From Nocardia ninae NBRC 108245 (GTDB lineage: Bacteria > Actinomycetota > Actinomycetes > Mycobacteriales > Mycobacteriaceae), in contig NZ_BJXA01000033.1 in NCBI RefSeq assembly GCF_007990755.1, positions 1-64,000 of the forward strand: 64,000 nt of DNA. Direction: 5' to 3'. Positions within the stretch are counted from its first letter, which is position 1; each line of letters opens with the position of its first letter. Positions 1-19,653 of the stretch are shown here, one piece after another. The notes beneath the pieces are model-generated. The model ran no database searches. It saw only the letters and a program-made list of their open reading frames with translations, and had not been told where the DNA came from. The position numbers and the translations under genes were made by a program.

Positions 1-3000
1 GCGCTTCGCGGCGGGCAGAGCATGGTTCCAGTCGACGGGAATTCCGGCCAGATGCATTCCCGCGAGAGAGGCCACCATGCACCGCGGCCCGTCCACGTCC
101 CGACGGAGGGAATGGAACACCGAGGGCGTGATTGTGGCGCCGTCACCGATGGACTCGAGGTCTGTGGTGAGCAGGGGGTGCGGGCTGATCTCAAGGAAGT
201 AGCGGTAGCCGTCGGCGATCATCCGTTCGACGGTGATGCCGAACTGTACGGTCTCGCGGATGTTTCTGAACCAGTACCCGGCGGTTGCGGTGGTGCCTCG
301 GATCGGGTCTCCGGTCACCGTCGAATACCACGTGATTGTCGAGTCCACGTCTTGTGGCTGGATATGGGCGAGGTCGTGGTTGAGCACGTCCTCGATGGGG
401 TCCATGTAGTGCGAGTGGGATGCGTATCGCACAGGCAGGAGCCGTGTGAAGGCTCCGCCGTGCTCGAACTGGGCGGCGAGGGTCTCGAGCGCTTCGGCCG
501 CGCCGGACAGCACGACAGCCCGTGCACTGTTGACCGCGGCGATGGATACGTCATCGTTGTCGAGGTTGTTGACGGCTGTGACGACGTCCTCGATCGGTGC
601 CGCGATCAGCAGCATCCGGCCGTTACTCGGAGTGAGAGACAAGACCGATGAGCGGCGAGCGACGATGCCTGCAGCGTCGGAGAGTTGGAGGACACCGGAG
701 ATGTAGGCAGCCGCGATTTCGCCCTGGGAATGCCCGACGACCGCATCGGGATGGATCCCCTGCCGCTGCCATACAGCGGCCAGCGACACCATGACGCTGA
801 ACAACAGGGGCTGTACGACCTCGTCGCGGGCGAGATCGTCTGCGTCGTCCATCCTGATCAAGCGATTGGTAACCGACCAGCCCAGATGTTCGTAGAAGGC
901 CAGATCGCAGCGGTCGAACTCGCGGCGGAAGGTCTCCGACATCTGATAAATGTCGCGGGCCATCCCGAGCCATTGGCTGCCTTGTCCGGGAAAGACGAAC
1001 GCGACTTTGCCCGTGTGGGTTTTCACCTCAGAGGCAATGCTGACGTGGTCTGCAGCGGTCGACGACGCCAGTGAATCCAAGCCTGCGAGCAGTTCGTCGC
1101 GGTCTTGCGCGACGATCACGGCACGATCCTCGAAGTGCGTACGGTACACGGCGAGGGTGGTCGCGATATCGGCCAGCGCCAGATCAGGATCGGCGGCTAC
1201 GAAGTCGCGGAGCTTCGCCGACATAGATCGCAGGGAGTGCTGGCTTCTCGCCGACAGCAGGAACGGAAGATGTTGTGAGACACGCTGATTCGTCATCGCC
1301 ATTGGAATCGCGGCGGCCGGCGGTTCCTGTAGCACCACATGTGCGTTGGTGCCTGAGATGCCGAACGACGAGACCCCTGCGGTCCGCACACGATCCGGGC
1401 GCCGATCCCATGGCTCGGCGGTGGCTACCAGCTCGAGTCCGGTCTGATTCCAGTCGGCTGAAGGCTCACCAGCGTAAAGCGAAATGGGCAAAACGTTGTG
1501 TTGCAGAGCGAGGATCGTCTTGATCAGCCCAGCGATTCCCGCCGAGGCTTGGGTGTGTCCGATGTTCGACTTGATCGCTCCGATACGCAGCGGGTTGCCG
1601 CGGCTGGCATCGGAGAAGACGCGCGCGAGCGACCGCGCTTCGATGCGGTCGCCCACAGCGGTGGCCGTGCCGTGAGCCTCTATATAATCCACGTCCTGGG
1701 CCGCGAGCCCAGCGTCGTGCAGCGCCGCGGAGATGACCTCGTCCTGCGCTAATCCGTTGGGCGCGCTCAGTCCTTGGCTTCGTCCGTCCTGATTTACCGC
1801 AGACCCGCGAATCACCGCGAGCACGGGATCGCCGTCCCGGACCGCGTCATCGAGCCGCTTGAGTATGACCATCCCGCCACCCTCGGACCACACGGCCCCG
1901 TCGGCGTCGGCGGCGAAAGGAGCACAGCGCCCGGTCGGTGAGAGCACACCGAGTTGGCTGAACTCGACGTGCGCGCTCGGCGTCAGCAGCAGAGTCGCGC
2001 TTCCCACCAATGCGGCATCGCACTCACCCCGCCGAAGCGATTGGGCGGCCAGGTGCAGCGAAACCAGCGCAGAGGAGCAGGCCGTGTCGACGGTGATCGC
2101 CGGACCACGCAGCCCGAAGGTGTAGGAGATACGGCCGGAAGCGACGCTCGTGGCGGTGCCCGTGGCGACGTACCCGTCGAGTTGACGCAGGTCGATACCT
2201 GCCAGGTACTGGCCGCCGTACATTCCGATGAAGACGCCGGTCTTGGTGCCTTCCAGGTGCTTTGGGACGATGCCCGCTCGCTCCATCGCCTCCCAACTCA
2301 GTTGCATCAGCAACCGCTGGTGAGGATCCATGGCTTCGGCTTCGCGTGGGCTGATCCCGAAGAAGGAAGCGTCGAAGCTTTTGACGTCTGGGAGGAAGCC
2401 GCCCTGGAAGCCTGCATCGGACATGCCGTCGACGTCCCACCGGTCTGCCGGCACATCCGAGATGACATCTCGACCGTCATGCAGGATCTGCCAGAGCTTT
2501 TCGGGGGTGTTCGCGCCGCCCGGGAACCGGCATGCCATGGACAGCACGGCAATCGGCTGGTCGTCGGTCGGTCCGGTGGTGGGCGCGACAGCTTCGCGAC
2601 TCTCGCCCTCGAGGGCATCGGCCAAGGACCGGACCGTGGGGTGCTCGAAGATCAGACTCGGGTCCAGGGGGCGACCAAGCTGGTCGGATACCACCCCGAT
2701 CAGCTCGACGAGTTGCCGCGAGCCGAGTCCGAGCTCAACCAACGGCCGATCAGCCATGACGTCCTCTGCCGCGATGCCACATGCTTCTGCGACAACTCGC
2801 TGTAGCAGACTCTGCATGTCGGAGGCGTCAGCGCCGGGCGCGGCAACGATGGTCTGCTCCTGGACCTGACGATCAACGTCCACGGACTTTGCGGTGGGTA
2901 CCGGATTGCCGTCGACAGCAACGACATTGGGCAGTGCTCCATCGAGATACGCGCCGCGGCAGGCTTGGCGTTGAATCTTGCCGCTGCTGGTCTTGAATAT

Positions 3001-4611
3001 CGACCGTGCCGAGATGAGCACGACCGCCCGCAGTCGCACTCCGTGTTCGGCGGATATCTTGCGCCGAACGGCGGCCGCGGTGGACTCGAGAGTTTCGTCG
3101 TCCTCGGCTCGGACCTCGGCGAGGACGACGATGCCCTCGGTCTCGTCGTCGTCGACGGCGAAGGCGGCGACCCCGCCGGGGCGGACGTTATCGTGCGCCG
3201 ATTCGGCTGTGAGCTCCAGGTCCTGCGGATGCAGGTTCCGCCCGTCGACGATCAGCACGTCTTTGAGTCTGCCGGTGACGAACAGCTGTCCGTCCGCAGC
3301 GAATCCGAGGTCGCCGGTGCGCAGATATCCGCTACGACCATCGGCCAACGTCGCCTGGAAAACATCCTGGTTGGCGGCGACACCGTTGAGGTACCCCGGC
3401 GAGACCGAACCGCTGGCAACCCAGATCTCACCTTCGGCCCCAACTGGGCACTCGCGACTTGTCTCTGGATCGACGATGACCACGGTTGTGCCGGACACCG
3501 GTACACCGACCCCGACGACCTCCTTGCCTGCGCCGCCACCGTCCGGGGGTGCAAGCGCCAGCAGTGTCGGCTCCTGCCCCAGGGGGACGGCGCAGACGAT
3601 CAGCGTCGCCTCGGCGAGGCCATACACCGGCTGAAAGGCAGTGCGGTGGAATCGGGCCGGCGCGAAGGTATCAGCGAACCGGCGCACGGTCGACGCCCGA
3701 ACCGGCTCGGCGCCGCAGAAGGCGAGGCGCCAGTGGGAAAGGTCGAGCGACTCGACCACATCCTGCGTTACCCGCCGGGCGGTGATCTCGTAGGCGAAGT
3801 TGGGGCCGCCGCTGTTGGTTGCCTTGAAGTGCGAGATCGCTTTGACCCAGCGCTCGGGGCGCTGGATGAAATGCAACGGGGAGAACAAGATTGCGGTGCC
3901 GCCCGAGTACAGGGTACCCAGCACTGGGCCGATCAGGCCCATGTCGTGATACATGGGCAGCCAGCTGACCGCCACCGTGTCGCTGCCATTAGCGGTGTGG
4001 CCCATCGCCAACGAGATGGCCGACTGATTGTGCAGCAGATTCCCGTGGGTGACAACCACACCCTTGGGCGCCGACGTCGATCCCGAGGTGTACTGCAGGA
4101 ACGCGATCGACTCGGCCGACAGCTGGGGAATACGGTGCTGCGAGGAATACGAGTTCGGGATCGTGTCGGTGGCCACTGTCCTCGCCCGCAACTCGATATC
4201 GCCGAGCGCTCCGCCCGCGGATTGCAAGATATCCTCGACCGCGTTGGTGGTGAGGACGACTGACACGTCCGCGTCCTCGATGACCTGTGCTAACCGTCGC
4301 ATCGCGCGATCGAAATCGGTCGCGTGCGGCAACGGTACCGGCACGGCGACCACCCCTGCGGAGACGCAGCCCAGGAAGCCTTCGATGAAGTCCAGGCCGG
4401 GCGGATACACCAGCAGGGCTCGCTCACCTTCGAGACCGTGTTCCTGCAACCAGCCCGCGATAGCGCGAGTCCGCAGGCCCAGCTCACGGTAGGTCAGGAC
4501 ATCGACCGGGCCGTCCACGTCGCCAGTCTGGAGGAACCGGTAGGCGACGTTGTCGGCCAGCTCTTCAAACCGCTGGAGCAGTACATCGAGATAGGTATTT
4601 TCGGTCGCCAT
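1..4611 (-). CDS. FAAL-ACP-KS-AT polyketide synthase (partial, runs off window start)
   Basis: Activates a fatty acid as acyl-AMP, loads it on a carrier protein and extends it. In one open frame of 1537 codons I see: fatty acyl-AMP ligase (about residues 1-570, with the adenylation motif YTSGSTSAPKGV), ACP (Ser631 in GLGS), ketosynthase (from about 684; Cys845 in DTACSS, His980 in EAHGTAT, His1019 in NIGHT) and acyltransferase (Ser1295 in GHSQGE, YASH at 1396). GHSQG with YASH predicts methylmalonyl-CoA. The frame is still open at base 1, so reductive domains or another ACP may lie outside. ATG at 4611 has AGGAAGG just upstream and follows the monooxygenase stop by 3 bases, so it is the last visible gene of the operon. 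All catalytic residues look intact, unlike the second PKS at 8486-11356. Confidence 0.93.
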   Translation of the reverse strand, partial: MATENTYLDVLLQRFEELADNVAYRFLQTGDVDGPVDVLTYRELGLRTRAIAGWLQEHGLEGERALLVYPPGLDFIEGFLGCVSAGVVAVPVPLPHATDFDRAMRRLAQVIEDADVSVVLTTNAVEDILQSAGGALGDIELRARTVATDTIPNSYSSQHRIPQLSAESIAFLQYTSGSTSAPKGVVVTHGNLLHNQSAISLAMGHTANGSDTVAVSWLPMYHDMGLIGPVLGTLYSGGTAILFSPLHFIQRPERWVKAISHFKATNSGGPNFAYEITARRVTQDVVESLDLSHWRLAFCGAEPVRASTVRRFADTFAPARFHRTAFQPVYGLAEATLIVCAVPLGQEPTLLALAPPDGGGAGKEVVGVGVPVSGTTVVIVDPETSRECPVGAEGEIWVASGSVSPGYLNGVAANQDVFQATLADGRSGYLRTGDLGFAADGQLFVTGRLKDVLIVDGRNLHPQDLELTAESAHDNVRPGGVAAFAVDDDETEGIVVLAEVRAEDDETLESTAAAVRRKISAEHGVRLRAVVLISARSIFKTSSGKIQRQACRGAYLDGALPNVVAVDGNPVPTAKSVDVDRQVQEQTIVAAPGADASDMQSLLQRVVAEACGIAAEDVMADRPLVELGLGSRQLVELIGVVSDQLGRPLDPSLIFEHPTVRSLADALEGESREAVAPTTGPTDDQPIAVLSMACRFPGGANTPEKLWQILHDGRDVISDVPADRWDVDGMSDAGFQGGFLPDVKSFDASFFGISPREAEAMDPHQRLLMQLSWEAMERAGIVPKHLEGTKTGVFIGMYGGQYLAGIDLRQLDGYVATGTATSVASGRISYTFGLRGPAITVDTACSSALVSLHLAAQSLRRGECDAALVGSATLLLTPSAHVEFSQLGVLSPTGRCAPFAADADGAVWSEGGGMVILKRLDDAVRDGDPVLAVIRGSAVNQDGRSQGLSAPNGLAQDEVISAALHDAGLAAQDVDYIEAHGTATAVGDRIEARSLARVFSDASRGNPLRIGAIKSNIGHTQASAGIAGLIKTILALQHNVLPISLYAGEPSADWNQTGLELVATAEPWDRRPDRVRTAGVSSFGISGTNAHVVLQEPPAAAIPMAMTNQRVSQHLPFLLSARSQHSLRSMSAKLRDFVAADPDLALADIATTLAVYRTHFEDRAVIVAQDRDELLAGLDSLASSTAADHVSIASEVKTHTGKVAFVFPGQGSQWLGMARDIYQMSETFRREFDRCDLAFYEHLGWSVTNRLIRMDDADDLARDEVVQPLLFSVMVSLAAVWQRQGIHPDAVVGHSQGEIAAAYISGVLQLSDAAGIVARRSSVLSLTPSNGRMLLIAAPIEDVVTAVNNLDNDDVSIAAVNSARAVVLSGAAEALETLAAQFEHGGAFTRLLPVRYASHSHYMDPIEDVLNHDLAHIQPQDVDSTITWYSTVTGDPIRGTTATAGYWFRNIRETVQFGITVERMIADGYRYFLEISPHPLLTTDLESIGDGATITPSVFHSLRRDVDGPRCMVASLAGMHLAGIPVDWNHALPAAKR

Positions 4612-6154: not shown

Positions 6155-7093
6155 CTAGTCAGACCAAATCTGAGTGGTTGGTGAAGCGAGAACATCGATG
6201 GCGGACGGCAATACATCGATATCGAAGGCGGGCGATTCCACGGTCCCTAGCTCCCCATCGTGATCGATTTTCAGCGACTGCCCGTCCAGCCGTTCGATCC
6301 GCACCGATTTCCCACTGCGATAATGACTTCCGGGCACGGCGCCCAGTGTGCCGTTCACACACGCCATCGCAAATTCTTCCCGATCCATCCGTGCGTTCAC
6401 GACGCATACGTCGAGTAGCCCGTCATCGAGGATCGATCTGGGCAGAAGGTTGAGAAAGCCTCCTCGGTACCTGCTGCCGCCGATCAGGACTGCCAATATC
6501 TCCGTCTCGACGAGCAGCTCCCCGTCGACAGTCACCCTGCCCGCGTACCCCTGGTAGGACTGAAGTGCCATCAATGCCGCTTCGGCTAGCTTCTCCCTGC
6601 CGTCCGATTGCAGGGAATGCGAAATCGTGAGGGCTTCGGGCAACAGGCCAGCTGAGATACCGAGCAGTGCCGGCTTGTCAAGCTTCGCTATCCACGCCAG
6701 ATCGATGGGCTTGCAGACGGCATCGCCACTGGTGAAGACCGCCTCGATGACCTCGAGCCACGGCTTGTCTTCCCACAGGCATCGATAGTTCGAGTTGCCG
6801 GTTCCTCCGGGAGCGATGAGCAGTTTGGGACGGTACCCAATTGGCCGTCCGACTGCCGAGTACATTCCCCGAGCGACTTCGCCGGCGGTTCCGTCGCCTC
6901 CGATCGCGACGACGACATCGATATCACCGCCGCCTGTCAGCTCGTGCGCGATGGTCTCCGCGTCACCAGGACTTCGGGTGATGAACTCGTGGAGCCCTAT
7001 GTTGTCGTGGTCGCGCAGAGCGCTGACCACCTCGAGCGGGTTCCCGCCCGCCAGAGTATTGGTTATTGCCGCCACCGCAAGACGCTTTTTCAT
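6155..7093 (-). CDS. Diacylglycerol kinase-like lipid kinase (YegS/BmrU/LCB5 family)
   Basis: 312 residues. Shows the family nucleotide motif GGDGT (in [11 protein letters not shown]) and the second glycine-rich motif [11 protein letters not shown], with the normal DAGK_cat plus C-terminal beta-sandwich length. Such enzymes phosphorylate a hydroxyl group with ATP. In valanimycin biosynthesis a kinase of this family (VlmJ) phosphorylates the hydroxyl of the azoxy hydrate before elimination to the alkene. A matching role here is inferred from the neighbours (DUF2156 transferase, N-oxygenase-like protein), not proven. A housekeeping lipid kinase captured by the cluster is the alternative. ATG at 7093 is preceded by GGAGG; the gene lies directly downstream of the second tRNA-like gene on the same strand. 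Confidence 0.85.
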
Positions 7094-7146
7094 GGACGCC
7101 TCCGGACATGCCCGCAGGGGAGCATTCGGACTGACGGAATCGAACG

Positions 7147-7230
7147 CGGAGGGGGCAGGATTCGAACCTGCGTGGGCGTTAACCCAGCTGAGAGACTCAA
7201 CTCCCGGTAGGCCACTTCGGGTACCCCTCC
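7147..7230 (-). tRNA. Serine-type tRNA-like gene with defective anticodon loop (distal copy)
   Basis: 84-nt class II cloverleaf read on the minus strand. It has a 7-bp acceptor stem GGAGGGG/CCCCTCC, discriminator G73, D stem CCCG/CGGG with GTGGCCTA in the loop, a long variable arm TGGG-TTAACG-CCCA and a T arm GCAGG-TTCGAAT-CCTGC. No CCA is encoded. Long variable arm plus G73 is the serine pattern. The anticodon arm is abnormal: GUUGA pairs with UCAGC around only five bases, GUCUC (7192-7196), and the G and C of that loop can pair to leave a UCU triloop. There is no U33 and no 7-base loop in the best fold, so normal decoding is unlikely. It lies between the DUF2156 gene and the kinase gene in the same direction, so it is probably cut from the operon transcript by RNase P and RNase Z. 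Confidence 0.8.
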
Positions 7231-7351
7231 CTGAATTAGTAAGTTCTAGCGTGATGATGCCTTACAGAAGTCCGGGAATAGCCCCGAACACATGCCATCC
7301 ACGACAGTCGTGAATAATCGGACCGCAGCACTGAGAATCCGAAATCAAGAG

Positions 7352-7435
7352 CGGAGGGGGCAGGATTCGAACCTGCGTGGGCGTTACCCCAGCTGAGAGA
7401 CTCAACTCCCGATAGGCCACTTCGGGTACCCCTCC
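7352..7435 (-). tRNA. Serine-type tRNA-like gene with defective anticodon loop (proximal copy)
   Basis: Paralogue of the copy at 7147-7230, 121 bp away and in the same direction. It differs at only two bases: a D-loop-edge C to U change, which turns the G13-C22 pair into G-U, and the first base of the variable-arm loop (GTAACG instead of TTAACG). All stems, the G73 discriminator, the T arm and the odd anticodon arm (loop GUCUC at 7397-7401) are identical. Its 5' end lies 13 bases after the DUF2156 stop codon. Both copies are preceded by nearly the same leader (AATTCAG and GAATCAG), but the spacers downstream have diverged. Conservation of the whole fold, including the shrunken loop, argues that both are functional RNAs and not decaying tRNA genes. 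Confidence 0.8.
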
Positions 7436-7448
7436 CTGATTCACATAC

Positions 7449-8489
7449 TCATATCATATTGATGGCACGCAGAAGACCTGAGATCTTTCCGGGCGTAAGC
7501 CATCCACGATAAGCGAGAAAATCGGGGATCAAGATCACTGGGTCCCACTTCAACTTGTACTGAAGCTGCGTTTCCGCAGGATAAACCAGGCTTCCATGAT
7601 CATATAACTTGTCGAGGAGAAATGCCAGCCAAGGATTCTTTGTGGGGAATTGATTTTCCGCCGACATGCCGGTGAACGGAGTCAGGCCGAAATGAAGGTA
7701 TCCAGCGCCTTCCTCGGTGATCTTCCTGATTACGTGCCAGTTGATCGCCTCCATAGCCCCAGGCGGCGCGACTTCGTTACGTCTACTCAGATCGTGGAGC
7801 CATCCGCTTTGCGTCCCGTAGACGGGCGAGTACGAGATGTATCCGACGGTTTCCTTTCCCATCGTGCCGACGAAGAGTCTGCGCAGATTCTGGACCGGCC
7901 CGCCGACTTCGCCCACCATGAAGGCCATCTCACGCGCGAACCGTCCTTTCGTCCGGAGCCACCGTCGATCGATGTCAGAGATGTCGGCCCTGACATTGTC
8001 ATGGGTGACCTCGCGAACCTGGAGACCTGCTCGCTCGGCGCGCGAGATCTTGTTCCGAAGCTTGACGAACTTCTTTCCGCGTAACGAGTAGCCGTTCAGG
8101 TCGACGGCGTAGGACGAGCCGAATTGGTTCACGTGAAAGCCGTTGCCGGCATAGACGGCCGCGTCGTCCGCCAGGAGCTGCATCGCCGCGACATCCTTCT
8201 TCTGGCGCTGCGCATATTGGACGAACTCCCGCAGTAAATCCGGCTTCGACTCCGCCGCCGTGAACGGTCCTCCGAGCTGGATGAAGTACCGCCCAATCTC
8301 TCGATAAAAGATCGCCCCATCGATGTTCGTTGCGCGGAACTGCTTGTTCTCCTGGTTGAGGGCCAGGAACCCGCTGGGGTTGTGCGACCAGTTCTGTACG
8401 GCGGCAGTGCCGTAACCGTCGACGCCGGTGGCGAGGTGCGTCACGGCGGGGTCCTCGATCTGGTGGTGTAGCCGGCTTCTGTCCCTCAT
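7449..8489 (-). CDS. DUF2156 (LPG_synthase_C) GNAT-fold aminoacyl-tRNA-dependent transferase, VlmA-like candidate
   Basis: 346 residues. The sequence resembles the C-terminal catalytic half of MprF/LysX-type proteins, a tandem GNAT fold that moves an amino acid from aminoacyl-tRNA to a lipid or small molecule. Supporting stretches are NGFHVNQFGSSYAVDL, RGKKFVKLRNKISRAE and the basic/aromatic HFGLTPF segment. There is no N-terminal membrane flippase, so it should be soluble. In valanimycin biosynthesis VlmA transfers serine from seryl-tRNA to an alkylhydroxylamine; I believe it has this fold, but cannot compare sequences here. ATG at 8489 overlaps the PKS stop (ATGA), so translation is coupled. 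The two tRNA-like genes start 13 bases after its stop, which makes them natural partners. Predicted role: seryl transfer to an N-hydroxylated intermediate. Donor amino acid is inferred. Confidence 0.8.
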   Translation of the reverse strand: MRDRSRLHHQIEDPAVTHLATGVDGYGTAAVQNWSHNPSGFLALNQENKQFRATNIDGAIFYREIGRYFIQLGGPFTAAESKPDLLREFVQYAQRQKKDVAAMQLLADDAAVYAGNGFHVNQFGSSYAVDLNGYSLRGKKFVKLRNKISRAERAGLQVREVTHDNVRADISDIDRRWLRTKGRFAREMAFMVGEVGGPVQNLRRLFVGTMGKETVGYISYSPVYGTQSGWLHDLSRRNEVAPPGAMEAINWHVIRKITEEGAGYLHFGLTPFTGMSAENQFPTKNPWLAFLLDKLYDHGSLVYPAETQLQYKLKWDPVILIPDFLAYRGWLTPGKISGLLRAINMI

Positions 8490-11356
8490 GCCGCAGTCTC
8501 TTCCAGGAGTTCGAGGATATGCGCGGTCAACGCAGCCGGTGTCGGATACCGGAGCGCGATGCTGGTGGGCAGGCGCAGCCCCGTGACTGCGGTCAGCCCG
8601 TTCCGCAGTTCCGCGGCCGATATGGAGTCCAGTCCGATATCGGTGAAGCTGATATCGGCGGTGATGGTCTCGTGGCCACTGCTGCGCAAGGTCTCGTTGA
8701 TCTCGCGGCAGAGGACTTCCAGCAGGGCCTCGTAGCGGTCCTCTGATGATCGCTTTTCCAGTGCCGCGAGCACTTCGTCGTCGGGGTTCACCGCCGATTC
8801 CGCGGGTCCGGCGGCGCTGGCGCCAGGAACAGCGGGCCGGGTCGGCTCCAGCCAATACGGCTTGCGGTCGAAGGCGTATGTGGGTAGATCGACGTGGCCC
8901 GCGTGAGTGCCGACGAAGAAGCGAGACCAGTCGACTTTGCCGCCTGCGCAGTACAGCTCGGCAGCCGCGGTCAGGATGTGCTGCAATCCGTCGGCACCGT
9001 GGCGCGGGTTGCCGCAGATGTAGGTCGTCGGAAGCTCCGGGCGGGTGTCGAAGATATCCGCGAGTTTCGGCACCAGGCACGGGTCGAGGCTGATCTCCAG
9101 GAAGTAGCGGCCGCCGTCAGTACGGGCGGCGAGCACGGCCTGTTCGAACTTCTTCGCGTCGTTGGGGTTGTGGATCCAGTGCCGCCCGTCCGACGCCCCA
9201 GCGCCGAGCGCTCCGCCCGTGCCCGAGGAGTACTCGCGGATCGTGGCAGGCGCTGAGTTGATCTGTGGCACCGCCTCAGCCAATCCGTTTCGGTACGCGA
9301 CGATGTGGGTTGCCTCGCGGAGGGTGAGGGTGCCGGCGATGTTAGCGGCAGCGATCTCTCCGGCGGCGTGTCCTAGGACGGCGTCGGGTCCCACACCGAT
9401 CGACTGCCACAGTCGCGCCAAGGCCACCGTGACGGCGAAATGCGCGACGGCTTCGATACCGGCGTGATCCAGGCCCGGAGCTCCCGGTGCACCGCGTAGG
9501 ACATCGGTGAGCCTCCAGTCGACGAACTCAGCCAGAACGTGCTCACATTCGAGCAGATACTCGGCGAAAGCTGATGAGGTGTCGAGTAATTCGACTGCAG
9601 GCTGCGCATACTGCGGGCCCCTCCCGGAGAAGACGAAGATCGTTTTGCCGACGGTGCCTGCATGTCCGCGCACCACGCGGTCGTCGGGTGCATCGTCGCC
9701 GACAGTTTGAAGGGCAGCGAGGAGGTCGGTGCGGTCGGTGCCGATCACGACCGCACGGTGCTCGAACTGTGTCCGGTTGGCCAACGACATGCCAACGTCG
9801 GCCGGGTCGATCTCGGGATCGCTGTTCACTCGTGTCCACAACCGATGTGCCTGATGTGCGACGACATCGGCACTTCGTCCCGACAAAACCCACGCCATCA
9901 CTGCGGGTCGCGCCGGAACAGGTTGCGGGGCGAGCGATTCCGGCACATTTGTAGGCGATTCTTCGAGGATGACATGCGCGTTGGTGCCGCTGATTCCGAA
10001 GGCGGACACCCCCGCGCGCCGTGGCTCGTCGGTTCGGGGCCAGGGCTGTTCCTCGGTAAGCAGGCGCACTGTGCCCGAGGACCAATCGATCTCGGCCGAG
10101 GGGATTTCGGCGTGCAAGGTCTTCGGCAAGACGCCACGCCGCATCGCCTCGACCATCTTGATGATCCCTGCCATCCCAGCAGCGGCTTGGGTGTGGCCGA
10201 TGTTCGACTTGACCGATCCCAGCCACAGCGGCCGATCCTCAGGGCGTTCACGCCCGTAGGTGGCCATCAGCGCGTGCGCCTCGATGGGGTCGCCCAGCGG
10301 GGTGCCCGTTCCCTGGGCTTCCACCACATCAACCTGTGCGCCGGAGAGACGGCTGTCGGCCAGTGCTGCGCGGATGACACGTTGCTGGGCAGGCCCGTTA
10401 GGAGCCGACAACCCGTTGCTCGCCCCATCCTGATTCACCGCCGAACCACGCGCCACCGCCAACACCCGATGCCCCAACCGCACCGCATCCGACAACCGCT
10501 CCACCACCAATACACCGACACCCTCCGAAGGCACGAAACCATCCGCACCCTCAGCGAACGCCTTACACCGACCATCCGCAGCCAGTGCCTGCAGTTGGGA
10601 GAATTCGACGAACGCGGAGGAGGTCGCCATGATCGTCGCGCCTGCGACCAACGCGAGGTCACACTCGCCGCGGCGCAGCGAATGCGCCGCGAGGTGCAAA
10701 GCGACCAATGAGGAAGAGCATGCGGTGTCCACCGACAGCGAAGGGCCTTCCAAGCCAAGGACATAGGACACTCGGCCCGACGCGACACTGGAGGTGTTGC
10801 CGGTCGCGATGAGACCGTCGACAGCGTTCGACGGGTCGTTGATGAGGTGTGCCCCATAGCCCTGATAGGTGAGGCCGGTGTAGACGCCGGTGTTGGACCC
10901 CTTCAACCGACGCGGATCAATACCCGCCGACTCCACCGCCTCCCACGACACCTCCAACAACAACCGCTGCTGCGGATCCATCGCCAACGCCTCACGAGGA
11001 CTGATCCCGAAGAACCCCGCATCGAACTCCGCCGCACCATCGAGAAAACCACCCTCACGCACATACGACCGACCCGGCGTCCCCGGCACCGGATCGAACA
11101 CACCCTCAACATCCCAACCACGATCGACAGGGAAACCCGAGATCACATCCCGCTCCCCCACCACCACATCCCACAACCCAGCAGGCGACGACACACCACC
11201 AGGAAAACGACACCCCATACCCACAATCACCACCGGATCCGAGGCTTGCAGCTCGAGTTTCTCGGCGCGACGCTTCCACGACTCCCGTTCGACGAGCGCT
11301 TTCCTGAGCGCGCCAATCAGGGAGTCCGTGTCCAAATCGGAGGTTATGGTTGTCAT
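8486..11356 (-). CDS. KS-AT-ACP polyketide synthase with disabled KS histidine and AT serine
   Basis: 956 residues: short N-terminal docking-like helix, ketosynthase (Cys213 in DTACSSS, NIGHT intact), acyltransferase region (about 590-840) and ACP (Ser911 in GLDSIS). Two key residues are lost. The first KS histidine, needed for decarboxylation, is Gln348 (EAQGTGT). The AT nucleophile serine is Ala664 (GHAAGE), and the AT lacks roughly 100 residues, including the segment that would hold the catalytic histidine. The module therefore should not load or condense an extender unit; it may pass an acyl chain to its ACP for tailoring by the aminotransferase or oxidoreductases. I start at ATG 11356, which follows GGGGATAGGA; an ATG at 11374 lacks a ribosome site. 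The stop overlaps the DUF2156 start. Confidence 0.92.
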
Positions 11357-11393
11357 TGTTCCTATCCCCGCCATATCTGTCCGTGTGGACGAG

Positions 11394-11849
11394 TTACTGC
11401 ACGATCGATGAGCCTGGAAAGACCTGGAGGACGATGTTCGACATCGTCTGCGTCAGCACCCTTACCGCGACGGGCGCGACGATCGATTCGAGGCTTGGCA
11501 CGCCGAAGTCGAAGTCAGCGCGGAATACGAGCTTTACCTCGTCGGGTTCGTCGCCGTCCGCAGCGACCCAGCTCCCCTCGAAGGTGTCGAAATCACCGTC
11601 GATCTGCTCGAAGCTCAGAACACACGCTTCGTCGTCATAGAAGTCCTGTTCCGACCAGGCCAGAAGGCCATTGCGGAAGTAAACCTCCCAGTCGGTGACG
11701 GCGCCCTTGCCGTCGAGGGAGGCTGCCGTCTCGACGGACTTGACGCGGTCCGGAGCGTTCCGGCGGTACACGTCAGCGTCTTTCAGCGTCTCGTAGACTT
11801 CCTGCCGCGGGAAGCCTTTGACAAGGCACTCGATCTGTACTTGTGTCAC
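11394..11849 (-). CDS. SRPBCC (START/polyketide cyclase-like) protein
   Basis: 151 residues with the pattern of the SRPBCC superfamily: an N-terminal strand, the helix PRQEVYETLKDADVYRR, the repeated strands VTDWEVYFRNGLLAWSE and CVLSFEQIDGDFDTFEG, and a long C-terminal helix. Such proteins have a hydrophobic cavity and act as cyclases, dehydratases or ligand carriers. The specific role is unknown; its place between the aminotransferase and the PKS makes a tailoring or carrier role likely. GTG at 11849 follows GGAGG at good distance and comes 14 bases after the aminotransferase stop. No catalytic residue can be named with confidence. Confidence 0.75.
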   Translation of the reverse strand: MTQVQIECLVKGFPRQEVYETLKDADVYRRNAPDRVKSVETAASLDGKGAVTDWEVYFRNGLLAWSEQDFYDDEACVLSFEQIDGDFDTFEGSWVAADGDEPDEVKLVFRADFDFGVPSLESIVAPVAVRVLTQTMSNIVLQVFPGSSIVQ

Positions 11850-11863
11850 GGGTTGTTCCTCCG

Positions 11864-13159
11864 TCAGCCGACCGCCGGAGCCGAGGAGCTCCGCACGGTT
11901 TCTCCAGGGTTCAAAAGTGTTTCCGCGCTGGTGATTCCGGAGAATGCGTCCCTGACTGCCGCCTCGACGATCTTCATTTCGTCGTCGGTGAGGATCGCGG
12001 GCGGCGTGAACCGTACGACGGAAGAGTTGTTCATGGAATGGTTCGCCAGCACTCCGTGCTCGATCAGTCCGAGCAACATTTCTCCAGCGAACCCTGGATC
12101 GGTGAACTCGATCCCGATGAGCAGGCCCTTGCCGCGGACTTCCTTTACGGTGCCGGCCGGTGCCGCCGCCGAGCTCTTGGAGAAGCTCGCGAGCAAGCGC
12201 TGACCGATCGTGCGCGACCGTTCGCCAATATCCTGAACCTGCAGCGCCCGAACCGTTCCCAGTACGGCGGCCGCCGAGATCGGGGCACCACTGTAGGTGG
12301 ACGTGTGTAGCAGGGGGTCCTTCTCGAACGGTTTGTAGGCATTCGAGGTGCATGCGATCGCTGACACCGGAACGACACCGCCGGAGAGAACCTTGCCAAC
12401 CAGCATCACGTCCGGATGGACGTCCATGCCGTCGATCCCCCACGTTCCTCCGACACGGCCGAGGCCCGTCTGGATCTCGTCGACAACGAGGAAGGCGCCG
12501 TATTCGGCGCACAGAGCAGAGACGCCGGGCAGATAGTCATCGCTGGGGACGATGACACCGCCCTCGCCCTGCACCGGTTCCACGATGAAGCACGAGGGGA
12601 TGCTGTCGGCGAGCACTCGGCGCAGCGCATCGAGATCGTTGTAGGGGATCTCTACGACGTCCGGGATGAGCGGCCTGAAGGCGTCCTGGTACATGGCTCG
12701 CGCGGTGACGCTCAGCGCGCCCATCGTCTTGCCGTGGTAGCCGTTCGTGGTAGAGATCAGCCGTCGGAATCCGTTGGCGCGCGCCAGCTTTATCGCTGCT
12801 TCAGTCGCTTCGGTGCCGGAGCTCACGAAATGAACCTTGTCGATGCCCTCCGGGCATATCGAGGCCAACGCTTGGGCGGCGCGCGGGCTGGTCTCATCAA
12901 TGAGCAGCCGCGCAGACAGAGGGTGGCGGTGGATCTGGTTGATGACCGATTCCACGACGTACTCGTTGCGGGCTCCGAGGAGGAAAACTCCTGAGCCAGC
13001 GCAGTTTACATACGACGTTCCGTCCATGGTGGTCAGGCCTGCCCCATACGACTCGGCCTCTACCTTGCCGCCGAGCATCTTGGAAATGCCGGCTAGGCGG
13101 CGGCCGAGATGCTTGGAGCACAGCGCCAGAACATGGCTCTGATCTTCAATATCATTCAC
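11864..13159 (-). CDS. Class III PLP-dependent aminotransferase
   Basis: 431 residues, ordinary length for the acetylornithine/GABA/diaminobutyrate aminotransferase group. Seen: glycine-rich NCAGSGVFLLG near the N-terminus, PLP-phosphate segment SSGTEATEAAIKLAR, the VVDEIQTGLGRVG aspartate region and the Schiff-base lysine in VMLVGKVLSGG. It would convert an aldehyde or keto group to a primary amine with an amino acid donor. In this operon it is the obvious source of the amine that the next enzyme (13203-14330) would N-oxidise. GTG start at 13159 has GAGG upstream, and the gene lies 43 bases after the N-oxygenase candidate. Confidence 0.9.
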   Translation of the reverse strand: MNDIEDQSHVLALCSKHLGRRLAGISKMLGGKVEAESYGAGLTTMDGTSYVNCAGSGVFLLGARNEYVVESVINQIHRHPLSARLLIDETSPRAAQALASICPEGIDKVHFVSSGTEATEAAIKLARANGFRRLISTTNGYHGKTMGALSVTARAMYQDAFRPLIPDVVEIPYNDLDALRRVLADSIPSCFIVEPVQGEGGVIVPSDDYLPGVSALCAEYGAFLVVDEIQTGLGRVGGTWGIDGMDVHPDVMLVGKVLSGGVVPVSAIACTSNAYKPFEKDPLLHTSTYSGAPISAAAVLGTVRALQVQDIGERSRTIGQRLLASFSKSSAAAPAGTVKEVRGKGLLIGIEFTDPGFAGEMLLGLIEHGVLANHSMNNSSVVRFTPPAILTDDEMKIVEAAVRDAFSGITSAETLLNPGETVRSSSAPAVG

Positions 13160-13202: not shown

Positions 13203-14330
13203 CTACACGATTTCCAAGCTGTTGCCGCGGAACGCCTCGTCCAGGGCACCCCACATGGAGTTTCTGGTGGGCGGGTGGAAGGCGAAGGCTTGCGTCGCGG
13301 CGTTGAGATAGCCGATGGCCGGGTTGTTGATGAACTCCATGCCGCCGAGGACTTCGGTGCTTCTGCGGACGCATCGCTGGACGGAGTCCTGCACCGCGTA
13401 CCGCATTACCAGGGCGTCGAACAGCATCTGGGGCTTCGCCGGGCTGTCCAAGGTCATCGCGATGCGCTCCAAACCCAGCAGCGCTGCCCGGAGTTCGGTG
13501 GCCGCCTCCGATCGCGCTTGCGCGGTCCCCTTGCCGCTTTCGAACAGTCGCTGCACCAGCGTGGTCGCCATGCCGAGATAGGTCGCCGAGACGAGCAGAG
13601 TGAACCAGGTGAGGCCGATCCGCTGGACCTCGTCGAACGAGATCCGGTCGCCTTCTTCCACTTTCATGACCAGCTGATCGGGAACGACGACGTCCTTCAG
13701 CAGGACCTCGTCGCTCTCGGTGCCCCGCAAGACCGGTGAGTTCCAGAAGGGGCGGATCTCGATACCGTCGACGTTGGCGGGCACGAGCACCATGCCCAAT
13801 CGGGGCGGGTGCCCGTCCTCGATCAGCTGGACGCTGGCCGACAGCAGATCCATCGACCGGGACAGGCTGCACGGCTTCTTCGATCCGTTGATCACCCAGT
13901 CGTCGCCGCGGCGGACAGCGGTGGTTTTGGGAGTGAGCTGTCCCTCGCCAGAACGGCCTTCGGCGCCGGCGCTGGACACAAGCAGCGATTCATGGGCGAT
14001 CGCGTCCATGATCACCCATTCCATGCCGTGGAACTTGTCCTCGAAGGCTCGCATCGACGCCAGCGTGAAGTTGTGCATCGTCGCGGCGACTGTGAGCGAC
14101 GGCGCGACGGCGCCGAGCGCGACGGTGAAGTTCAGCGCCTGCAGGGCCGTCGCGCCCTTGCCGCCGTGGACCTCGGGGACGAGCAGACCGGGTGCCTTCG
14201 ACTTCCGGAAGGCATCGATACCGTTCGACGGGTTTTCCTCGAGATCGATCAGGGAATACGCGGCGACATCCGCGAGCAGGCCGGGCACCAGTTCTTCGGT
14301 CGTTCGAAGTGCTTCTTCATCAAGAATCAC
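13203..14330 (-). CDS. Acyl-CoA-dehydrogenase-fold flavoprotein, candidate amine N-oxygenase (VlmH-like)
   Basis: 375 residues with the overall acyl-CoA dehydrogenase fold: the mid-region INGSKKPCSLSRSMDLL in place of the usual NGxKxWITN motif, and C-terminal helices with the motif EVLGGMEF. The catalytic glutamate region of true dehydrogenases (YEGT) is replaced by HPPTRNS, so alpha,beta-dehydrogenation is unlikely. The same fold is used by reduced-flavin monooxygenases such as isobutylamine N-hydroxylase of valanimycin and DszC. I infer N-hydroxylation of the amine made by the adjacent aminotransferase. The needed flavin reductase is not in this window. GTG start at 14330 follows AAGGAG. 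A degenerate dehydrogenase remains possible. Confidence 0.78.
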   Translation of the reverse strand: MILDEEALRTTEELVPGLLADVAAYSLIDLEENPSNGIDAFRKSKAPGLLVPEVHGGKGATALQALNFTVALGAVAPSLTVAATMHNFTLASMRAFEDKFHGMEWVIMDAIAHESLLVSSAGAEGRSGEGQLTPKTTAVRRGDDWVINGSKKPCSLSRSMDLLSASVQLIEDGHPPRLGMVLVPANVDGIEIRPFWNSPVLRGTESDEVLLKDVVVPDQLVMKVEEGDRISFDEVQRIGLTWFTLLVSATYLGMATTLVQRLFESGKGTAQARSEAATELRAALLGLERIAMTLDSPAKPQMLFDALVMRYAVQDSVQRCVRRSTEVLGGMEFINNPAIGYLNAATQAFAFHPPTRNSMWGALDEAFRGNSLEIV

Positions 14331-14393: not shown

Positions 14394-15983
14394 TCAGGAC
14401 ACGCTGGTGTCGAAGACGGCGGAGCGGGGATGGACGTCGGACGCGATGCTGATGCCCTGTAGTCGCGACGTTCGCAGGATCGGGAAGTTTCCCTCGCCGT
14501 AGGGGCCTCCCGACAGGCCGGCGCCGCCCTGGCTGGGAAGGCCGATGACGAACCCGATATGGCTGTCGTTGACCTTCAACAGACCGCCGTTTTCTACGCG
14601 TTCACAGAATTGATCGATGACGTCGCTGTCGGCGGTCCACAGAGAGTTTCGCAGCCCGTATTGGTTGCTGTTGATGAAGGCGATCGACTCGGTGAGCAGC
14701 TCGTCGTCGGCGGCCGGCGAAGGGATGATGATCGGGAGCAATGGGAAGAAAGTCTCGCGTCGGACGGCGTCGAGGCGGTCGGCTGCCTGTAAGCCGTTCA
14801 CCGTGATGATGGTCGGCTGGACGAAGTAGCCCAGATCGCTGACCTCCCCGGTTACTTCCATCCGGTTCCCGCCGTACACCAACTCTGCGCCCTGCGCGAG
14901 AGCGTCGGTGAGGGCCGTCATGAAGTCCTCTGCTTTTAACACCGGCGACAGCAGGCAGTCGTCGTCCTCGGGGTATCCCGGCCGGATCTCCTTCGCGATT
15001 TCGACCAGCCGCATTACGACAGCGTCCGCGATGTCCGGATGGACGATCGCGTACTTGGGGACGATGCAGACCTGGGCGGATCCGTAAAAGCACTCTGCCA
15101 ACGCTTTGGCTGCCAGATCCACATCCGCGTCGCGCCAGACCAGCACGCCGTCGTTGCCGCCGAGCTCCAGGACCGCCTTCTTCCCGTGTGCCGACCACCG
15201 CTGTCCGATTTCGATGCCTCGTTCGGAGTCTCCGAAGAACATCAGATCGTCGACATCGGGGCTGTCGAGCCAGATATCGAGGGCCTCGTTGGGAGCCGCG
15301 CAGATCATGTTGGCGGTGCCCGCAGGCGCGCCCAAGCCGTCGAGAACTGGTGCGATGAGCTCGCGCCAGAACCATGCGGTGCCGAACGCGGCGCTGCGCG
15401 GAGCCTTGACTACGATCGTGTTGCCTACGATCAACGCACCCAGTGAGACGATCGAGTTGGCCGTCGGGGCGTTGTACGGCGGGTGGACACACACGACGCC
15501 GTCAGGCTTTCGCACGAGCCGGATTTCACGGCCTCCGACATGGGAGATCTGACGCATCTGGTGGCGGTAGAGTTCCAGGCTCGCTTCGTTGGTCATGCTG
15601 ATCGCGCCAGACACCTCCCACTCGGCGAGCTTCTTGGGATGTCCTTCCGCCGTGAGGATTTCGACGAATCGGTCGGCGTTGGACTGAACGATCTTGCCGA
15701 CCTGGCGAGCGAATTCGATCCGGGTGTCCATTCCCATTGCTGCCCAGGCGGGCTGGGCGGCTCTGGCGGCGGCGCTCGCCGCGATGATCTGGTCTCGATC
15801 GCAGATGCCGACCCTGCCTAGAATTCGCGGATCATCGGTTGCGGATATTTTCCCTCGATCGAGCTGGCGCTTGAGCTTGAGAACTGCCATTTCATCACGG
15901 AGCATCGACGCCGCGTGCACGGCATGAATCCATTCGGTGTGTTCCCCGTCCCGCCCGCCGATAAGCGCTGGATAGCTCTGCAT
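14394..15983 (-). CDS. Aldehyde dehydrogenase superfamily enzyme
   Basis: 529 residues, a little longer than the usual 480-500 because of an N-terminal extension. Seen: VCVHPPYNAPTANSIV in place of the usual PWNFP segment, NAD-binding region, catalytic glutamate in VLELGGND and the cysteine loop SAQVCIVPKY. It could oxidise an aldehyde, or work toward aldehyde release from an acyl thioester or CoA ester to feed the aminotransferase; the second fits the operon better but is inference. ATG at 15983 is preceded by GGGGAGGGA. It is the first gene of the minus-strand operon, divergent from the ParB-like regulator. Confidence 0.88.
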   Translation of the reverse strand: MQSYPALIGGRDGEHTEWIHAVHAASMLRDEMAVLKLKRQLDRGKISATDDPRILGRVGICDRDQIIAASAAARAAQPAWAAMGMDTRIEFARQVGKIVQSNADRFVEILTAEGHPKKLAEWEVSGAISMTNEASLELYRHQMRQISHVGGREIRLVRKPDGVVCVHPPYNAPTANSIVSLGALIVGNTIVVKAPRSAAFGTAWFWRELIAPVLDGLGAPAGTANMICAAPNEALDIWLDSPDVDDLMFFGDSERGIEIGQRWSAHGKKAVLELGGNDGVLVWRDADVDLAAKALAECFYGSAQVCIVPKYAIVHPDIADAVVMRLVEIAKEIRPGYPEDDDCLLSPVLKAEDFMTALTDALAQGAELVYGGNRMEVTGEVSDLGYFVQPTIITVNGLQAADRLDAVRRETFFPLLPIIIPSPAADDELLTESIAFINSNQYGLRNSLWTADSDVIDQFCERVENGGLLKVNDSHIGFVIGLPSQGGAGLSGGPYGEGNFPILRTSRLQGISIASDVHPRSAVFDTSVS

Positions 15984-16606
15984 AGCGAATTCCCTCCCCA
16001 TTCTATTGCGCGGACTCCCTGCCGACACAACGTGAAACTTGCGTTTCGGTAGCCATTCCAGAAGGCGATACTGAAAGTGACCGTACCAGTACATCGCCGA
16101 AGAGGCGACACCCGTGCGCAAACGATTGCAATTTACTTCGTGTTCGGCCGCCGGCCATGCCCGCAGGCCGAACCTCCATGTCACCAAACTGGCGGCAGTT
16201 GACCCCTCTCAACAAGTCCATGACGTTACTCATCGGTAACCGGTCTGTGTGTAAAGACAGGTGACCAGCAGCATCACTGATCACGCAGTCCGGCCTGCGG
16301 AATCGCCGCCATCTGCCTGGAACCGCCTGGCTTATTCCGATAGTCTCCAGTCGGTCCAGGCGGGGAGTCCTGGGCCACTGAGGTCGGTGTAGTTCCGTTG
16401 GAGCTTCATGCCGAACGACCCAAAGGGAGGGAGTGCACAATACATGCGGAATCAATTGCAGTCGGTTCATGCCGACCCTTCGCAATCGACAGGTTGCGCC
16501 TTGTAGCTGGGGCCGATCGATGGATCGATCAACTCGACGACTGGGACCTGCTGAGCAGTGAAGCGCATACTCGGCGGGATTTCGCGTAGTACTTGGGAGA
16601 ACCTCT
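15984..16606. promoter_or_regulatory. Divergent intergenic region between biosynthetic operon and regulator
   Basis: 623 bases without a credible gene. It must carry the promoters of the minus-strand biosynthetic operon and of the plus-strand ParB/StrR-like regulator. I see a perfect GATCGAT-GG-ATCGATC inverted repeat at 16515-16530 and a weaker GTTAC-TCATCG-GTAAC repeat at 16225-16240. No clear match to the StrR operator is visible by eye. Confidence 0.6.
16515..16530. promoter_or_regulatory. Perfect inverted repeat, operator candidate
   Basis: GATCGAT, a GG spacer, then ATCGATC, 77 bases before the GTG start of the ParB-like regulator. Position fits an autoregulatory or pathway operator. 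Arms are short and of simple composition, so this is only a candidate. Confidence 0.35.
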
Positions 16607-18210: not shown

Positions 18211-19653
18211 CTAGTTGCGCACGCGCAAGCTCAAGCGGAAATCCTTGGGCATGAAGGTGAGTCGTTCGGCGACACACAGGCGATATCCGGGGTCGGCTGT
18301 GATGTCGTAACGCTGCAGGATGGAGCCGAGCGCGATGAGGGACTCATGGATCGCAAATTGCCTTCCGATACAGGCCCGCTCACCAGTGCCGAACGGTTTG
18401 TAGATGTGGGGTGCTCGGTTGCGTACGCGATCGGGGGCGAAGCGGTCCGGATCGAACCGGTCCACATCCGGTCCCCACGCCGGCGTGCGATGCAGATTCG
18501 GGATCAAGATGTTCATGCTTTCGCCCGCAGCCATCGGATACTTGCCACCGACGACCGTGTCCTGTCGAGCCTGGCGGGAGTAGACAGGTGCTGTGGGCCA
18601 GAGCCGCAACGCCTCATCGAGCACGCGGCGCACGTACCTAAGCTTCGCGGCTTGTTCGAAGCTTGGCACCTCGGTGCGCCCCCACGCGTCGTCTACCTCG
18701 GCCTGCGCTCGGGCCAATACCTCGGGGTGTTGAGACAGGTAGTAGAGCGCGAATGACAAAGCCCCGGAGGTGGTTTCGTGTCCAGCGACCAGGAATGTGA
18801 TCATCTGATAGCGCATGTTGCGCTCATCAAGCCTATTCGGGTCATTCTGGCGCACGGCCCGCATCATCAGCTCCAACAGGTCGCCATTCTGGTCCTGGTC
18901 GGCCTCACGACGTTCGGCAATCACTTTGTCCACGACACCGAACATGTAGTCCCGCCTGGCCTTTTCCTTCCCGTCCGGGTGGCGCAGCAGCAGATCACCG
19001 ATGATAGGTACAGAAAATACCGAGCGCAGCGGTGCGTAGGCCAGCGATTCGATCATCGCAGTGACGAAGGGGTGCGGTTCTTCGCGCTCGAAAGCGTTGA
19101 AGGTGAAGCTGAATCCTGTACGCCCGATGGTTTCCAGCGTCAGTTTGGTCATGTCGCCTGCCACGTCGACACCCGCTCGACCGGCACTGCGGTCCCACCG
19201 CCGCACGAGGGCGGCCGTCGTGTCGAGCATCGTCTGGTGGTATCCACGCATCGCGGCCTGGGTGAAACCCGGCTTCAGAAGATCATGTGCGTGACGCCAA
19301 TTTGGCTCATCGTTGTGGGCAGTGAACAATCCGTCTTCCCCGATGCTGCGAAGAAAGGGCAATGTCTTCTTCGCAAACCGAGTCTCGTCAGATAGCTCGG
19401 CGACTATTTCACTATCGTAAACGAACACGAATCGCATGTTCAACAACTTGCGTTCGAAGATCGGGCCGAGCTCGCGACCGAGGGCCATCGTTGTTTGGGT
19501 CGGCGTGATCAGATTCATCGTGGTCAGGTCGCCCAGCACAGGCAAGCGCCACCGGGGGCGCGGAATCGCGCCAGTACGCGACGACGTCATCTTTGTAGCC
19601 AATTCCCCACCTTTGATTCGATATTCTGCAATTCCCGCCGAATATTCGTTCAT
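18211..19653 (-). CDS. Cytochrome P450, CYP102-like heme domain without reductase
   Basis: 480 residues. Heme-binding loop FGTGERACIGRQFA, K-helix EALR, I-helix AGHETTSG and distal sequence patterns such as DGLFTAHNDEPNWRHAHDLLKPGF closely follow the heme domain of P450 BM3-type fatty acid hydroxylases. The fused reductase of CYP102 is absent, so separate redox partners are needed. Likely substrate is a fatty acid or acyl chain, fitting the lipid part predicted for the cluster product. The start ATG at 19653 overlaps the TGA of the upstream membrane protein (ATGA), so the two genes are translationally coupled. An internal start at residue 22 is possible. Confidence 0.92.
   Translation of the reverse strand: MNEYSAGIAEYRIKGGELATKMTSSRTGAIPRPRWRLPVLGDLTTMNLITPTQTTMALGRELGPIFERKLLNMRFVFVYDSEIVAELSDETRFAKKTLPFLRSIGEDGLFTAHNDEPNWRHAHDLLKPGFTQAAMRGYHQTMLDTTAALVRRWDRSAGRAGVDVAGDMTKLTLETIGRTGFSFTFNAFEREEPHPFVTAMIESLAYAPLRSVFSVPIIGDLLLRHPDGKEKARRDYMFGVVDKVIAERREADQDQNGDLLELMMRAVRQNDPNRLDERNMRYQMITFLVAGHETTSGALSFALYYLSQHPEVLARAQAEVDDAWGRTEVPSFEQAAKLRYVRRVLDEALRLWPTAPVYSRQARQDTVVGGKYPMAAGESMNILIPNLHRTPAWGPDVDRFDPDRFAPDRVRNRAPHIYKPFGTGERACIGRQFAIHESLIALGSILQRYDITADPGYRLCVAERLTFMPKDFRLSLRVRN

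Follow-up and report, generated by a model that had tools for sequence, protein, structure and literature searches.

The window, the whole stretch of 64,000 nucleotides of Nocardia ninae DNA analysed here, carries two tandem tRNA-like genes within a biosynthetic gene cluster. The encoded RNAs are very probably non-decoding derivatives of tRNA-Ser that act as private seryl carriers for the neighbouring VlmA-type DUF2156 transferase.

Two serine-type tRNA-like genes in the window

ARAGORN predicted two minus-strand tRNA genes in the window (7146-7230 and 7351-7435), labelled both as tRNA-Arg(tct), and detected no tmRNA. The two copies differ at 2 of 85 positions and were delimited as follows.

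7352..7435, minus strand: anticodon-less Ser-type tRNA-like gene, copy 1; 84 nt including G73, CCA not encoded (ARAGORN, fold, family alignment and covariation)
7147..7230, minus strand: anticodon-less Ser-type tRNA-like gene, copy 2 (ARAGORN, fold, 98% identity to copy 1)

Both copies form a cloverleaf with a 7-bp acceptor arm, a 4-bp D arm, a variable arm, a 5-bp T arm and G73. In the minimum-energy fold, a hairpin of 7 bp capped by a UCU triloop takes the place of the anticodon arm; opening of its two inner pairs leaves a GUUGA/UCAGC stem with the 5-base loop GUCUC, which is the form that the initial annotation of this DNA had described. Its main observation, two co-directional serine-type tRNA-like genes with a collapsed anticodon loop, was confirmed by ARAGORN, the fold and the neighbouring genes.

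A search of the whole genome with the Rfam tRNA model (RF00005) recovered 63 tRNAs, and neither window copy matched at E <= 0.01. At 6900-7700, the best match of the tRNA clan was tRNA-Sec (RF01852), in a clan search that shows the best clan member only and matches up to E 1. The scores of 29.1 and 27.4 bits lie below the gathering score of 47, a tRNA-Sec identity was therefore rejected, and no Rfam family reached its gathering score in the window locus. Ordinary tRNA-Ser genes (tga, gct, cga and gga) and a tRNA-Arg(tct) gene are encoded elsewhere in the genome, so that the window RNA genes are not needed for decoding. Another tRNA-like gene of the window genome, which is Tyr/Leu-like and was given the four-base anticodon gtaa by ARAGORN, was observed at L349:60-142 (G000:C56:49560-49641).

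The surrounding gene cluster

The two copies are co-directional and lie between a DUF2156 gene and a kinase gene, with 13 nt from the DUF2156 stop codon to copy 1 and 53 nt from copy 2 to the kinase gene. The annotated protein-coding genes of the cluster are listed below.

1..4611, minus strand: PKS with AMP-binding, ACP, KS and AT domains; runs off the contig end
4615..6143, minus strand: flavin monooxygenase-like gene, two overlapping frames; homologues in related clusters
6155..7093, minus strand: DAGK_cat/YegS_C kinase, VlmJ type (PF19279 6.7e-14, PF00781 2e-13)
7449..8489, minus strand: DUF2156 / LPG_synthase_C aminoacyl-tRNA transferase, VlmA homologue, 346 aa (PF09924 E 2.5e-60)
8486..11374, minus strand: type I PKS module (KS-AT-ACP), from domain matches
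11394..11945, minus strand, start codon provisional: SRPBCC / polyketide cyclase-like protein (PF03364 1.1e-11); recurrent in VlmA loci
11864..13159, minus strand: class III aminotransferase (PF00202 6.1e-79); recurrent in VlmA loci
13203..14330, minus strand: acyl-CoA-dehydrogenase-like flavoprotein, candidate VlmH-type N-hydroxylase (PF02770); recurrent in VlmA loci
14394..16187, minus strand: aldehyde dehydrogenase (PF00171); recurrent in VlmA loci
19650..20141, minus strand: small protein without a Pfam match, hydrophobic by eye, putative VlmO counterpart; recurrent in VlmA loci

The DUF2156 protein scored 204.5 bits against PF09924, which has a gathering score of 27.5, and is thereby a member of the family. 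With a profile of 19 VlmA homologues, the nearest solved structures were MprF and the Ala/Lys-tRNA-dependent phosphatidylglycerol synthases. A published survey, in its excerpts, assigns PF09924 to VlmA and PF19279/PF03972 to the VlmJ/VlmK pair (PMC9379638). The acyl-CoA-dehydrogenase-like protein is encoded ~5 kb from the VlmA homologue and is a candidate VlmH counterpart; a P450 gene is also present among the cluster genes. Homologues of VlmB and VlmR gave no tblastn match above 60 bits in the 64-kb window, where the cluster runs off the contig start, so an azoxy product, although likely for this cluster, is not established. The two frames of the flavin monooxygenase-like gene (4615-5985 and 5760-6143) reflect either a real frameshift or a sequencing error.

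Distribution of the RNA family

Among 98 genomes of the window's genus, the RNA was found in G035 and G091 besides the window genome, each time adjoining a DUF2156 homologue. A protein search yielded a VlmA set of the window and 35 DUF2156 loci from 33 genomes (regions up to 20 kb), and family RNAs were located within the region in 10 of these 36 loci, with up to three copies each. When the contig collection was searched with the window protein, no related loci were returned. The genome contigs were also scanned with a 28-base degenerate pattern of the RNA 5' half, which gave at least 119 actinobacterial stretches, with 80 loci among the matches listed. The matches listed were mostly from Streptomyces, and the other genera among them were Actinokineospora, Microbispora, Micromonospora, Kitasatospora, Embleya, Rhodococcus, Streptacidiphilus and Streptantibioticus. 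Of the 102 pattern matches among those listed, 98 continue into a T arm and an acceptor that match the family, while the remaining four were cut by the slice end (L096, L134, L150) or by a run of N (L128).

Tandem arrays of two, three and four copies were observed, and dispersed extra copies also occur. The comparison set comprised 115 copies, 99 of them distinct; it includes genomes present in two collections (e.g. L069 and L152, which have identical VlmA rows), and the family size is a lower bound. A search of other genomes for the same fold beside DUF2156 genes, as the initial annotation had advised, shows it recurring in many genera. Chance is not the explanation, as the loss of the anticodon loop and the link to DUF2156 recur with the fold.

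According to the family clustering, dispersed copies without visible cluster genes are found at L102, L106, L107, L156 (one Streptomyces malaysiense contig), L129/L141 and L155/L163. The genomes of these loci also encode a VlmA homologue, and G227 has seven copies in several places. In 21 of 88 RNA-bearing loci, genes that cluster with SARP-type regulators were placed no more than 400 nt from the RNA by a crude gene caller that merged some calls. In L092, L104, L123, L132 and L167, the family RNA has a GDSL-hydrolase-like gene at most 400 nt away, and the window cluster contains such a gene at 20799-21497. Kitasatospora griseola JCM 3339 carries a family RNA (L105), and another strain of this species is described, in the excerpts of its report, with a cluster for a valanimycin-like compound (PMC4384148).

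Replacement of the anticodon arm

A full canonical anticodon arm, with a 5-bp stem, a 7-nt loop and U33, was formed by none of the 99 distinct family members, and 4 of the 5 pairs were formed by 12 of them. The same crude arm test on the 63 host tRNAs gave 54 full arms, 5 with 4 of 5 pairs and 4 that scored 1-3. The earlier proposal that the RNAs do not decode is thus borne out structurally.

Across the relatives, the anticodon was read by ARAGORN as tct, ccc, cacg, cc, cgtg, ccca, tgc, ggt, tcg and others, and the RNAs were labelled tRNA-Arg, Gly, Ala, Thr, Val or '???'. False tRNA genes may therefore sit in public genome records, and a definition of the family would correct such annotations. 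The label tRNA-Arg(tct) would agree with decoding tRNAs of odd anticodon (Arg UCU, or frameshift decoders) that serve the cluster genes; however, the loops are short, without U33 and unconserved among relatives. We regard decoding as extremely improbable, and a tRNA-Arg(UCU) identity was rejected because the host already has an ordinary tRNA-Arg(tct) gene and no full canonical arm was found in the 99 sequences.

Covariation was analysed on 44 diverse sequences (alignment A4) with a 28-pair cloverleaf, the structure having been hand-drawn on the same alignment. Standard pairs occupied 94.8% of the cells, and changes on both sides of a pair were seen in 77 cells compared with 21.6 in shuffles. 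For each of the five covariation measures, all 500 shuffles fell short of the observed value, and shifting the partner by one column lowered the pairing to 57.6-59.9%. In the replaced anticodon arm, each of the 8 pairs had changed on both sides and 82.8% of the cells were paired, and the variable-arm helix was paired in 96.6% of cells. Never-varying pairs accounted for 5 of 7 in the acceptor, 3 of 4 in the D and 4 of 5 in the T arm. The distribution of invariant and covarying pairs shows that sequence is conserved in the acceptor, D and T arms, whereas the anticodon arm is free to change provided that it still closes. Judged from this alignment, the replaced anticodon arm is selected as a stem and not as a sequence.

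The covariation also bears on whether these genes are decayed tRNA pseudogenes or were left behind by integration events at tRNA genes. Such an origin could be suspected from the duplicated short tRNA-like units, the contig end 7 kb away, and an HTH protein 9 kb away with sub-threshold transposase similarity. It is, however, contradicted by the compensatory covariation and was rejected; the near-invariant arms, the wide distribution and the VlmA linkage likewise speak against it, and we give it almost no weight.

Serine identity elements and relation to tRNA-Ser

All of the 44 aligned sequences contain G1-C72, G2-C71, A3-U70 and G73, and the family has a long variable arm. The covariance model R1 scored window copy 1 at 85.2 bits and copy 2, which belongs to its training set, at 87.1 bits. 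On 394 class genomes, for which 11 first-look candidates were scored per genome under strict filters that make misses possible, R1 found 15 copies in five genomes at 78-91.5 bits, and the next match scored 64.5. Four of these five carriers (G000, G612, G747 and G840) supplied R1 training sequences. The weaker matches span 53.8-64.5 bits, and in the class genomes 25 of the 25 that were checked proved to be ordinary tRNA-Ser (gga, gct, tga). In the VlmA genomes, with 150 candidates scored per genome, 13 weaker matches that were checked were also ordinary tRNA-Ser, the sole exception being a match in G568. When host tRNAs were ranked by alignment score, the nearest was a tRNA-Ser for the body only, and at full length a tRNA-Ser was tied with tRNA-Tyr and an odd Tyr/Leu-like gene. 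The RNA family is descended from tRNA-Ser.

The G568 gene (L082:376-466, equal to L293:1501-1591) is a tRNA with a different body and an encoded CCA, and scored 56.4 bits with R1. It lies on the margin of the cluster that most resembles that of the window. The RNA folds with a stem of 8 bp capped by a GTGA tetraloop or, alternatively, with a loop of 8 nt, and it may be a seryl carrier without an anticodon that is either diverged or of independent origin.

Seryl-tRNA synthetase (SerRS) genes were found beside several of the RNAs. The window genome itself encodes one full SerRS, on another contig and outside the cluster. A SerRS paralogue (PF00587 and PF02403) is located inside the cluster in 2 of the 36 VlmA loci, L086 and L087, both of which are RNA-bearing, and in the slice of 10 of the 80 loci among the matches listed. 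All 12 paralogues are of one type, with at least 56% identity to the L086 or L087 protein (several are partial) and at most 43% identity to the window host SerRS. In Streptomyces tendae (L160:4773-6237, RNA and SerRS gene), the paralogue follows the RNA after ~150 nt in the same orientation; this slice is without VlmA, which is encoded elsewhere in the genome (G867). The excerpts of the published survey also place PF02403, as SerRS, near some VlmA groups (PMC9379638). A plasmid cluster of Streptomyces sp. NBC_01267 is annotated with serS, VlmB-like, aminotransferase, acyl-CoA dehydrogenase, aldehyde dehydrogenase, MmgE/PrpD, diacylglycerol kinase family, DUF2156, flavin reductase and SARP regulator genes. 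Four places on this plasmid match the family RNA, one of them between the kinase and the DUF2156 gene.

The pair G3-U70 is the alanine determinant, and the A3-U70 pair occupies this position in 44 of 44 sequences. Donor RNAs charged with another amino acid, such as alanine in azodyrecin-like pathways, are on this ground very improbable, although alanyl-tRNA has been proposed for Ady7 in the excerpts of one report (PMC9379638). G73 and the long variable arm fit serine, as do the SerRS paralogues, which were found by a search for SerRS. Serine is most likely the carried amino acid, from the identity elements and the SerRS neighbours. The seryl assignment first made for the window copies is thus supported by the long variable arm, the invariant acceptor pairs and G73, by tRNA-Ser as nearest relatives and by the paralogous SerRS in 12 loci.

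Linkage of the RNA to VlmA

The presence of VlmA was counted by tblastn, as the gene caller is a crude GC-frame heuristic. Among the matches listed, a VlmA homologue was seen inside the slice (at most 8 kb) in 31 of 80 loci. In the window and in L055, L056, L067 and L101, the RNA follows VlmA in the same orientation at a coordinate distance of 8-47 nt; in 26 other loci, mostly from Streptomyces, the two are divergent and 96-278 nt apart. The RNA lies some kb away in L075, L084, L087 and L166. In L147, whose row in the VlmA alignment A3 has a spurious N-terminal extension, the RNA (6310-6399) precedes vlmA by ~110 nt in the same orientation, with the VlmA match starting at 6508.

VlmA was not seen by tblastn in 49 of the 80 slices among the matches listed, part of which have no visible cluster genes. 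Thirty of these 49 loci were tested, corresponding to 29 genomes, and a VlmA homologue was found elsewhere in 29 of 29, with best E values from 9e-186 to 6.6e-99. The base rate of VlmA was 9 of 394 class genomes, with profile A3 at E <= 1e-70, a query that differs from that of the 29-genome test. The five RNA carriers among the 394 class genomes all belong to the nine VlmA genomes (Fisher p 1.6e-9; p 7e-8 minus the window genome). In a set of 72,556 plasmids, 14 match the family RNA, with 80% or more of its length covered in 13 of these, 13 match VlmA and 11 match both; among the 11, NBC_00726 covers only 37% of the RNA query and four are near-copies, so that a Fisher value for the plasmids is inflated. 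Linkage at both the locus and the genome level supports the dedication to DUF2156-driven small-molecule biosynthesis that had been suggested for the window pair.

VlmA/VlmH pairs occur in ~5.7% of the actinobacteria surveyed, according to the excerpts of that survey (PMC9379638). For 20 of 34 VlmA-bearing genomes, R1 found no family RNA at 77 bits or above, and this RNA-less set includes the same-genus genomes G012, G021 and G067, with clusters like that of the window. VlmA therefore apparently can work without the RNA, presumably by using ordinary seryl-tRNA, and the RNA is an elaboration. A tree was built from 36 VlmA proteins (the window and 35 others) chosen by protein search and not by RNA, with L081, where the RNA is present at genome level only, set as 'no RNA'. 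A nine-member clade (100/99) has the RNA in all nine genomes, a less firm group of ten rows (90/91) has it in none, and the window VlmA falls in a mixed set of eight (98/96), four with and four without. The RNA label requires 5 changes on this tree compared with 11.3-11.4 in shuffles. This pattern indicates that the coupling of RNA and VlmA is inherited, and sometimes gained or lost, in particular VlmA lineages.

An alternative is that the RNAs are not donors but regulatory tRNA mimics that control vlmA, serS or a SARP regulator, for example by decoying SerRS, by acting as leaders or by sensing the seryl status. Many copies do lie in the divergent vlmA promoter region or beside SARP genes, the L160 copy is just upstream of the paralogous serS on the same strand, the L147 copy holds a similar place before vlmA, and copies far from VlmA exist. 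However, the near-invariant acceptor end and T arm suit an aminoacylated substrate, and the tandem arrays of 3-4 copies and the paralogous SerRS genes suit substrate supply. The position relative to vlmA also varies (downstream, divergent, upstream or distant), unlike that of a leader, and a leader-type regulator as the sole function was rejected for this reason. We consider the regulatory explanation unlikely.

Proposed function

VlmA takes serine from seryl-tRNA, as stated in the excerpts of two reports (PMC12945691, PMC4052509), and one of them describes the diversion of Ser-tRNA from translation into valanimycin as unexplained (PMC4052509). For the proposed seryl carriers, we suggest that the RNAs are transcribed with the vlmA and kinase genes, processed to tRNA size and provided with CCA. 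SerRS would charge them, because serine identity lies in the long variable arm, the acceptor pairs and G73, all of which are present in the sequence, and not in the anticodon. The seryl-RNA would then escape decoding, since the RNA lacks the anticodon loop and U33. The transferase would pass the serine on to an acceptor, which would be a hydroxylamine if the enzyme behaves like VlmA; given the protein family and the cluster context, the product would be an O-seryl-hydroxylamine and then an azoxy compound, and the uncharged RNA would be recycled. A plausible benefit is that the translation pool is spared, or that the local supply of the seryl donor is raised, the latter of which the multiple RNA copies would fit.

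For actinobacteria more widely, it is probable that a separate, translation-free aminoacyl-tRNA economy exists, in which arm-replaced tRNA-Ser, arranged in arrays and sometimes provided with its own SerRS, feeds VlmA-type transferases. If true, this would directly answer how seryl-tRNA leaves translation for azoxy-antibiotic biosynthesis, and would define a new functional class of tRNA, the pure amino-acid carriers. The RNA could further be used as a genome-mining marker for VlmA-type clusters, and natural SerRS/tRNA pairs insulated from translation would become available for engineering.

Comparison with known systems

Among the matches listed from searches of open-licence PubMed Central full text, no paper was found to describe such RNAs, as judged by title and abstract start. 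The tRNA-like domain of tmRNA is similarly a tRNA-like RNA without an anticodon loop and is aminoacylated; it carries alanine, acts in ribosome rescue and is joined to an mRNA-like domain. The Bacillus cereus pseudo-tRNA (tRNA-Other) is reportedly a tRNA-like gene proposed to act outside translation, and is said to differ from the family RNAs in sequence and context. The specialised tRNA-Gly of Staphylococcus aureus keeps its anticodon and serves the FemXAB ligases. Excerpts of a report on this cell-wall system describe an isoacceptor that is apparently poorly used in translation and preferred for non-ribosomal transfer (PMC4810233). It is a functional precedent, but one for glycine and the cell wall, outside biosynthetic clusters, whereas the window RNAs have a Ser-type body and a DUF2156 partner. 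tRNA-Sec is charged by SerRS and has a long extra arm, according to the excerpts of its account (PMC9976931); unlike the family RNAs, it has an anticodon and decodes a stop codon.

The closest biosynthetic system is that of valanimycin in Streptomyces viridifaciens (VlmA/VlmL/VlmJ/VlmK), which shares the DUF2156 transferase and the kinase, with some relatives of the window cluster adding MmgE/PrpD, SerRS and SARP genes; in contrast to the window, the excerpts of its accounts name no dedicated tRNA (PMC4052509, PMC12945691). Canonical bacterial tRNA-Ser is nearest by covariance model and has the same acceptor pairs, G73, long variable arm and cloverleaf, whereas the family RNAs are without the anticodon loop and U33. 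A comparison by eye with a few tRNA-Ser showed further differences: the D stem has 4 bp and its loop one extra base, and the T stem, GCAGG/CCUGC, is nearly invariant. The family descends from tRNA-Ser and would work like other specialised donor tRNAs, and what is apparently new as a system is a tRNA that lacks an anticodon and is encoded to carry an amino acid for biosynthesis.
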